Assembly: GCA_963971535.1 (NCBI GenBank) | Contig: OZ020592.1 | Span: 130,121,663 to 130,185,662 of the forward strand | Reading direction: 5' to 3' | DNA length: 64,000 nt | From: Notolepis coatsorum | Lineage: Eukaryota; Chordata; Actinopteri; Aulopiformes; Paralepididae | Shown here: positions 54,501 through 55,811 of the stretch, in pieces | How the letters are laid out: every line of letters starts with the position of its first letter | Position numbering within the stretch: position 1 is the first letter of the stretch | Program-made: the position numbers and the translations under genes | The notes under the pieces: generated by a model | What the model saw: the letters and a program-made list of their open reading frames with translations, nothing else | Databases searched by the model: none | Told to the model about the DNA's origin: nothing

Positions 54501-55232
54501 CTATGCCCTAAACACAGCATCACGGGCAGGGCATTCTCTCCACATATGTCTTTTAACATTCCCACATCTGCCACATCCAGGAGACTGTGTGTCAGTCCTG
54601 TACTGTTGTACCTTCTGCCATTCATATTTTTGTATGGCCTCTACATGTGCAGCTGCCTGCTGCTCAGTGCCTCTTAAGACGGGCTGTTGTTTCTTTATTG
54701 CTGCACTCTGCTTCACCTTAGTCATTGCCCTTTCCAGAGTTAAATCTGCATCCATTTGCAGGTTTTCTGATAGCTTGGCATCTCTTATGCCTACTACAAT
54801 TCTGTCCCTTATCAAGTCTTCTCTTAGGGTTCCAAATTGACAATGTTCAGCCAGTGTGTGTACAGCAGTGATAAAGGATTCAACATTCTCACCCGGTTCT
54901 TGGTTCCGTCTGTTGAAACATGCTCTATCAAATATGACGTTCCTCTTACTGACACAATGTGCGTTGAAAGCATCCGTGACATCCTTGTATTTATTTTTCT
55001 GTTCCTCTGTGAGCGGCAAAACACTTAATATGTCTTCGGCGTCGTCTCCCGCCGCATACATGAAGGCATTTACTTGGAATTCTTCTGACTGTCTATCCAA
55101 TCCAGACGCTATTCTATAACGTTCAAATCGCTTCATCCATCTCGGCCAGTCATTAATATTATTGTTGAAATCAAACCTGCCTGGCGGAGCCAGCTGTGGC
55201 AGCGACGGCAACTGGGCTGCTTCGTCCCCCAT
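54501..55232 (-). CDS. Gypsy Gag (243-aa frame), 3' end cut by hAT
   Basis: Gag forms the particle and binds the element RNA. From ATG 55232: GRFDFNNNINDWPRWMKRFE, FNRRNQEPGENVESFITAVH and LAEHCQFGTLREDLIRDRIV are typical of vertebrate Gypsy gag, followed by the start of a zinc knuckle (GCGRCGNVKRHMWRECPA). The last residues are hAT. The gag reading continues at 51613 beyond the hAT. The ATG has A at -3 and G at +4, a strong context, and lies inside the tail of the histone H1 frame. Confidence 0.9.
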   Translation of the reverse strand: MGDEAAQLPSLPQLAPPGRFDFNNNINDWPRWMKRFERYRIASGLDRQSEEFQVNAFMYAAGDDAEDILSVLPLTEEQKNKYKDVTDAFNAHCVSKRNVIFDRACFNRRNQEPGENVESFITAVHTLAEHCQFGTLREDLIRDRIVVGIRDAKLSENLQMDADLTLERAMTKVKQSAAIKKQQPVLRGTEQQAAAHVEAIQKYEWQKVQQYRTDTQSPGCGRCGNVKRHMWRECPARDAVFRA

Positions 55233-55609
55233 CCTGTCGTCGTCTTTTTCTTTCTTTCTTCTTTTTTCTTCTTGGCCGCTGGCTTCTTTGCTGGCTTTTT
55301 TGCTTTGACCTCAGCCTTCTTGTTGATCTTGAAAGAGCCGGAGGCTCCGGTACCCTTGACCTGGACCAAGGTTCCCTTTGTCACCAGACGCTTGACGGCA
55401 GTCTTCACACGCGTTTTGTTTTTATCCACGTCGTAGCCACCGGCAGCGAGAGCCTTCCTTATGGCAGCGAGTGACACCCCGCTCCTCTTTTTAGAAGCAG
55501 ATACTGCCTCGACGACCAGGTCACTGACACTGAGACCTGCTTTCTTGAGTCTGGGAGCTGCCTTCTTCTTGGTGGCCGGAGCGGCGGGAGCTGGATCGAC
55601 TGCTTCCAT
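55133..55609 (-). CDS. Histone H1-like protein captured by the Gypsy element
   Basis: Linker histones bind nucleosomal DNA at the entry/exit site. The intronless frame begins MEAVDPAPAAPATKKKAAPR, followed by the winged-helix globular domain (KKAGLSVSDLVVEAVSASKK, RSGVSLAAIRKALAAGGYDV, TRVKTAVKRLVTKGTLVQVK, GTGASGSFKINKK; about residues 22-98) and a short lysine-rich tail (KAKKPAKKPAAKKKK). From about residue 123 the frame reads gag leader sequence in another frame until the stop at 55133. The tail is thus ~25 residues instead of the usual ~100. It lies 50 bp inside the LTR, right after the primer-binding site, and its ATG (G at -3 and +4) is the first after the LTR. No stop or shift in the globular domain. 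Confidence 0.92.
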   Translation of the reverse strand: MEAVDPAPAAPATKKKAAPRLKKAGLSVSDLVVEAVSASKKRSGVSLAAIRKALAAGGYDVDKNKTRVKTAVKRLVTKGTLVQVKGTGASGSFKINKKAEVKAKKPAKKPAAKKKKEERKKKTTTGWGTKQPSCRRCHSWLRQAGLISTIILMTGRDG

Positions 55610-55639
55610 TCCCTTTTTTTCCGTCTCCTTATATTAAGT

Positions 55640-55658
55640 TATCCCACTTCTGACACCA
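55640..55658 (-). other. Primer-binding site
   Basis: TGGTGTCAGAAGTGGGATA directly follows the LTR on the minus strand, the standard position for tRNA priming of minus-strand DNA; TGG start fits a tRNA CCA end. Confidence 0.8.
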
Positions 55659-55811
55659 TGTTGTGTAAACCTCGTACTCTTTGGTTCACATATAATAACG
55701 AGACGGAGAGCGTGTGATCACATTGACTGTTTACTAGCTTCCCCGTCAGGAAGTACTGTGCCACATATATACCTGTCTGTGTAGCAACACGAGCCAATAC
55801 CTTACATGACA
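55659..55811 (-). repeat. 5' LTR of the H1-carrying Gypsy element
   Basis: A 153-bp repeat: minus strand TGTCATGTAAGG...TTTACACAACA, with TATATATG inside as a possible TATA box. The solo LTR at 26553-26692 confirms its borders. Confidence 0.88.

Follow-up and report, generated by a model that had tools for sequence, protein, structure and literature searches.

The window analysed here, the whole 64-kb stretch of contig OZ020592.1 from Notolepis coatsorum, carries on its minus strand a copy of a Ty3/Gypsy retrotransposon in which a long terminal repeat (LTR) and a primer-binding site are followed by a linker-histone H1 domain and then by Gag. That this is the anatomy of the element and that its H1 came from the host is close to certain. 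An original prediction, made from the letters of the window, had described the order LTR, primer-binding site, H1 open reading frame and gag ATG, and this order is found in the window and in 26/26 copies examined in the source genome (LTR end or primer site, H1, gag), some of them with a partial LTR or an intervening insert. The same prediction took H1 for a captured gene of its own; judged from the reading frames of the copies, H1 is instead the predicted N-terminal domain of a polyprotein of H1, Gag, protease (PR) and integrase (IN), H1-Gag-PR-IN. The features of the window copy are as follows.

55659..55811, minus strand: 5' LTR of 153 bp with TGTC...AACA ends, set by comparison with two-LTR copies carrying 5-bp target duplications.
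55641..55658, minus strand: primer-binding site TGGTGTCAGAAGTGGGAT, immediately after the LTR.
55610..55640, minus strand: A/G-rich leader, in this copy without the ~27-nt piece that resembles the host 5' untranslated region (5'UTR).
55262..55609, minus strand: codons 1-116 of H1, taken up from the host and covering the N tail, the globular domain and the first part of the lysine-rich tail, from the Pfam Linker_histone match (1.8e-22) and alignment with host H1 loci L027-L030.
55133..55609, minus strand: H1 open frame of the window copy, stop included; beyond codon ~116 it is gag leader read out of frame.
54506..55232, minus strand: 5' part of gag (capsid and first zinc knuckle), ATG at 55232, from homologues and an all-helical model.
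51621..54505, no strand assigned: later hAT-like insert in gag, ~2.9 kb, with an 8-bp duplication (7/8 match) at 51613-51620 and 54506-54513, read by eye.
50960..51612, minus strand: second zinc knuckle and protease region, in the same order in other copies.
50310..50955, minus strand: integrase remnant; the rve domain is present in four sister copies.

The H1 globular domain of the window copy is uninterrupted, as had been proposed. Its Linker_histone match lies far beyond the Pfam cut-off and its best match among solved structures is GH1, the H1 globular domain (4e-26). A frame break in the A/G-rich joint separates H1 from Gag in this copy, and the H1 frame past codon ~116 consequently reads the gag leader out of frame. 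The Pfam scan of the window gag returned no domain; 411 homologues were matched in the protein database, the named ones among the best 120 being mostly from the hake Merluccius polli. The AlphaFold model of Gag is all-helical (mean pLDDT 84.4, pTM 0.61) and Foldseek ranked retroviral and retrotransposon capsids at the top, with weak scores (best E 0.097, none at or below 0.001). The LTRs of other copies are 91-98% identical to the window LTR across a 148-base core. With at most one to a few base changes, the primer-binding site abuts the LTR in all 29 copies read, three of which are H1-less; it is presumably complementary to tRNA-Leu, and no tRNA gene was found in the 64-kb window. The window copy has neither reverse transcriptase nor RNase H, its protease being followed directly by integrase. 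With its gag split by an insert that we take to be hAT-like from its end motif, its reverse transcriptase absent and no matching 3' LTR found in the window, the element is dead. The only other LTR-like match in the window (26553-26693, minus strand, 74% identical) is located ~24 kb beyond the integrase remnant; GCCCC is read by eye on either side of it, and it is apparently the solo LTR of a relative.

The source genome (3.42 Gb in 4787 contigs) contains many copies with the same order, as the original prediction had anticipated. A search with the H1 frame, in which 150 of 1016 candidates were scored, recovered the window and 25 other loci at 78-98% identity, besides over a hundred further H1 matches, many of them clustered, which are taken to be host H1 genes. 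Similarly, a DNA search with a 171-base query across the H1-gag junction (90 candidates, 40 scored, so that the counts are a lower bound) placed this junction at no fewer than 28 genomic positions, 23 matched end-to-end (one from base 3) and five in two pieces. These cover all 26 loci of the H1 search and add two, and 12 further places match the gag side of the junction only. Two LTR matches are present in 15 of the 20 sister copies read across ~9 kb. The 13 complete LTR pairs, compared after exclusion of L042 and L049 with their partial 5' LTRs, display Kimura two-parameter distances (K2P) of 0 to 0.041, two pairs being identical. Target duplications of 5 bp, read by eye, are perfect in 11 of these 13 pairs, unclear in L040 and two bases off in L045. 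The H1-gag copies are thus independent and in part recent insertions. Since independent insertions have 5-bp target duplications of their own, a single copy and an assembly artefact, the outcomes that would have spoken against the predicted capture, are excluded; with 28 junction places on many contigs and perfect duplications in 11/13 pairs, an artefact or a chance neighbour is refuted and has practically no probability left.

Of the 26 copies, 19 have H1 reading in frame into Gag (18 by motif, L014 by eye). Among these, 17 open at the H1 ATG, while L014 and L025 have no in-frame H1 ATG. In the remaining seven, the window copy included, the frame is interrupted at the joint or close to it by a stop, an indel or a GAAA tract that has expanded. 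In the four sister copies tested (L032, L044, L045 and L049) Pfam places Linker_histone (1.4e-18 to 1.2e-21) and the integrase core within one open frame of 838-909 amino acids, and the translations of L032 and L045, read by eye, run through H1, capsid, two zinc knuckles, a protease motif and integrase. Protease was reported by Pfam in one of the four polyproteins, at 0.0097 and below the cut-off, the motif itself being recognised by eye, and no chromodomain was found in the four at E 0.01. The GAAA repeat is expanded at the H1-gag joint of L002, L007, L011 and L026, where the basic linker is longer. In most H1 copies (not L001 or L020; by eye) the capture created an ATG 28 bases upstream of the H1 ATG, and because the two are out of frame, translation of H1-Gag may need leaky scanning. 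In L047 (1668-9032) the H1-gag frame extends over 2455 codons and two other frames are likewise open over much of the stretch. A giant fusion of 2455 amino acids in L018 and L047 was for this reason rejected, and the additional open frames suggest that a tandem repeat with a unit length divisible by three probably runs through the long frame.

Protease abuts integrase, with no reverse transcriptase or RNase H, in 23 of the 26 copies; the other three (L006, L009 and L013) are truncated or rearranged ahead of this point and are uninformative. As reverse transcriptase is missing from every informative copy, the H1 family is classed, from its gene content, as a non-autonomous derivative of a Ty3/Gypsy family. 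Each of the H1-less relatives L051-L053 has a single base difference in its primer site, and gag comes directly after a similar leader. Reverse transcriptase was not seen in L052 but was identified by Pfam in both relatives tested, L051 (1.5e-14) and L053 (9.5e-26). A genome search with the L053 reverse transcriptase (117 of 30156 candidates scored) gave 40 scored matches at least 83% identical, five of them in frames of 1,211-1,326 amino acids, one with a stop. The 28 H1 places have none of the 117 scored matches within 279 kb, while 8 of the 12 gag-only places have one at most 6.4 kb away. The H1-less relatives are the likely suppliers of reverse transcriptase to the H1 family. The hake protein Merluccius polli P0243 is also, by eye, a gag-protease-integrase without reverse transcriptase, so derivatives of this kind may recur in the lineage.

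The origin of the H1 segment is indicated by its likeness to host H1 loci L027-L030, with which it displays 85-87% protein identity across 116 codons; among database H1s (best 120 of 947) the highest identity is 82%, and it covers about half of the query. Stretches such as VSDLVVEAV are common to the element H1s and the host loci. The likeness stops near codon 116, where a short basic joint and Gag follow. At the other end, ~27 bases ahead of the H1 ATG resemble the host H1 5'UTR in 22 of 26 copies and partially in L020, L025 and L026 (by eye). The H1 segment is bordered at both joints by A/G-rich sequence, a setting that would suit template switching. Replication-dependent H1 genes have no introns, and the intronless state of H1, originally read as a sign of mRNA capture, is for that reason no sign by itself. 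A phylogeny against host H1 genes had been proposed as a way of dating the capture; in the unrooted tree of 26 copies and four host loci, L011, L025 and L026, which keep further host states, adjoin the host. L025 and L026 are basal copies, both on the 191-kb contig C3169, and have in common a deletion at the N-terminus of H1 that takes away the H1 ATG. By their relatives, H1 and Gag both fit a teleost source.

Selection was estimated on all 26 copies for H1 and gag and on 22 of the 26 for protease, with stops masked, polarity by majority only and four host H1 loci. As predicted, the ratio of replacement to synonymous change (omega) is below 1 for H1, at 0.491, with a log likelihood of -1025.14 compared with -1030.40 at omega=1, 5.3 log units worse (twice the difference ~10.5). 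Similar values were obtained for gag (0.456; -2012.55 and -2022.88 at omega=1) and protease (0.621; -2272.36 and -2277.88). Variants found in at least two copies, most of them older than the insertions, have synonymous:replacement counts of 16:19 in H1, 29:25 in gag and 25:23 in protease, compared for H1 with an expectation of ~1:3 from site counts. The corresponding singleton counts are 18:26, 22:55 and 29:91. By these measures H1 appears constrained about as strongly as Gag.

These data are best accommodated by an account in which a host Ty3/Gypsy element took up ~375 nt of a replication-dependent H1 transcript (~27 nt of 5'UTR and codons 1-116), most likely when reverse transcriptase switched templates between A/G-rich stretches. 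The segment would have landed in the A/G-rich leader between primer-binding site and gag, its lysine-rich tail becoming fused in frame to gag to give H1-Gag-PR-IN. A derivative lacking reverse transcriptase as well would then have multiplied as a non-autonomous family, with copying in trans presumably provided by its close H1-less sister family, in which the enzyme is retained. Incorporated in the particle, the globular domain and basic tail of H1-Gag may anchor both Gag and the pre-integration complex to nucleosomes, during mitosis for instance, and such a hold would favour nuclear retention and integration. We infer the transcript as source, the template switching, the single capture, the supply in trans and the tethering, and consider the account in its entirety to have an even chance of being right. 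Chromatin tethering by H1-Gag is the best guess at its function, by analogy with two viral systems. In murine leukaemia virus (MLV), p12 keeps the pre-integration complex on nucleosomes and p12 defects are rescued by foreign chromatin-binding sequences, as described in PMC6021111; foamy-virus Gag binds nucleosomes at the H2A-H2B patch, and according to PMC12125541 this binding decides integration sites. In both, a nucleosome tether is borne on Gag, which is the way of working proposed here (PMC6021111, PMC12125541). In contrast, the viral tethers, as these sources present them, are viral peptides that bind nucleosomal histones, whereas here the candidate is a host-like linker-histone domain. 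Somewhat more tentatively, a host linker-histone domain may have been domesticated as the leading part of Gag, so that particles bring their own binder of the nucleosome dyad and an element lacking reverse transcriptase competes for chromatin and integration with an enzyme borrowed from its sister family. The family would then be a natural counterpart of laboratory-made heterologous chromatin-binding fusions.

Several observations weigh against this account. In the gag tree the basal copies L025 and L026 group with H1-less copies (support 41), so that the argument for a single capture is carried by the shared joint and not by the tree. With all informative copies devoid of reverse transcriptase, tethering would help only a dependent element. 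The constraint on H1 could come in part from keeping gag in frame. The singletons of H1 look constrained, unlike those of gag or protease, which hints that a collection of copies made by H1 likeness may favour conserved H1s, a bias tempered by the fact that the set covers 26 of the 28 junction places. The larger subfamily has threonine in place of a lysine that we take to be the counterpart of H5 K85, a nucleosome contact. The long lysine-rich C-terminal tail of H1, which matters for chromatin compaction, is mostly gone from the element.

The tail loss and the altered residues of subfamilies, a likely nucleosome contact among them, equally suit the main rival explanation, in which capture of the H1 piece was an accident and the piece persists only as a tolerated gag fusion, with only the open frame and perhaps its basic charge being of consequence. 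Donor H1 genes are very abundant, given the more than one hundred further matches, several copies show a GAAA expansion in the A/G-rich joint and the basal pair has no H1 start codon, all of which agree with a passenger. The rejection of omega=1 for H1 and the 16:19 ratio of its shared changes, near those of gag and protease and compared with ~1:3 expected, argue in the opposite direction, although the sampling bias weakens both points, and this explanation is rated as rather unlikely. Less probable still is a role of H1 as an extra nucleocapsid that packs RNA or coats cDNA in the particle and does not bind host chromatin. H1 and its lysine tail bind nucleic acid generally, and H1-less L051 already displays a short basic stretch, MGRKKRRRKKEKDDRM, at the same place, which H1 would extend; the retention of the globular domain, not of a basic tail alone, and the zinc knuckles already present in Gag make such a role hard to favour. 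The identity of 85-87% to host H1 would also allow H1-Gag to compete with host H1 and loosen or alter silencing chromatin at element copies, but H1-Gag would be rare beside host H1 and nothing tested supports this reading, which is very improbable.

Host-gene capture by retroelements is already known, Gag fusions in transforming retroviruses included. The Gag-onc fusions of acute transforming retroviruses place host coding sequence in frame with Gag of a defective, helper-dependent element, and in this they resemble the H1-Gag family. They differ in being exogenous viruses of birds and mammals that carry the host sequence after part of Gag and have lost pol; here, the histone domain precedes Gag, and the family is a genomic Gypsy one with protease and integrase retained. 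The maize element Bs1 is distinguished by being a plant element with other genes and few copies, whereas the present family is animal and multi-copy, with a histone domain at the head of Gag. As reported in PMC7264820, Bs1 is an LTR element that transduced pieces of host genes, and capture of host coding sequence is common to both. LTR elements can capture open reading frames downstream of pol, and onc gene capture is named in the same source (PMC6431247). Orchid Gypsy elements with an AlkB m6A demethylase domain likewise belong to a Ty3/Gypsy lineage in which a domain from the host was gained and retained, although this is an additional open reading frame in a 25-kb element and, in the description given, not a chromatin protein (PMC9289625). 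Chromoviruses are Ty3/Gypsy elements with a chromatin-binding module, which in their case is a chromodomain that reads histone marks (PMC9289625) and is described at the C-terminus of integrase (PMC3605345); here, the module is H1 at the N-terminus of Gag. Fish Gags of the same lineage include Merluccius polli P0243 (72% identical over 61% of the query), which by eye also has integrase after protease without reverse transcriptase, but no H1.

Three protein searches against ~5.8 billion proteins returned the best 120 each of 411, 947 and 316 matches, the third having scored the 7993 candidates that share most words. Among the 331 matches (E 0.01, own translations excluded), none combines H1 and Gag in one protein, 180 having H1 only and 151 Gag only; as these are the best 120 per search and word-sharing candidates, a fusion that differs in length or ranks lower may have escaped notice. 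Candidate H1-Gag fusions in frogs, Lycodopsis, Pholidichthys, Zosterops and Acipenser (E < 1e-33) were rejected as double or fragmentary H1s without Gag. No published H1-bearing LTR element was recognised by title or abstract in the literature searched (literal terms, open-licence papers, best-ranked, for example 20 of 854). A histone in frame at the front of Gag, in a multi-copy, recent and apparently constrained family, would show, as a natural experiment, how retroelement particles locate chromatin and stay on it. The H1-Gag family would also offer a test of whether linker-histone domains steer integration, with the H1-less sister family of the same genome as a built-in comparison for insertion sites.

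Other elements are present in the window. A different Gypsy element at 713-3982 on the minus strand displays an open frame of 1090 amino acids with protease, reverse transcriptase, RNase H, an integrase zinc finger and a zinc knuckle (Pfam), followed by an integrase frame of 266 amino acids at 3-800. LINE-like remnants at 57153-59187 on the minus strand have RVT_1 (7.2e-12) and ALKBH8_N (1.1e-13) matches in neighbouring frames, and an open frame of 427 amino acids at 40095-41378 on the plus strand, LINE-like by eye, matches RVT_1 at 5.7e-28.
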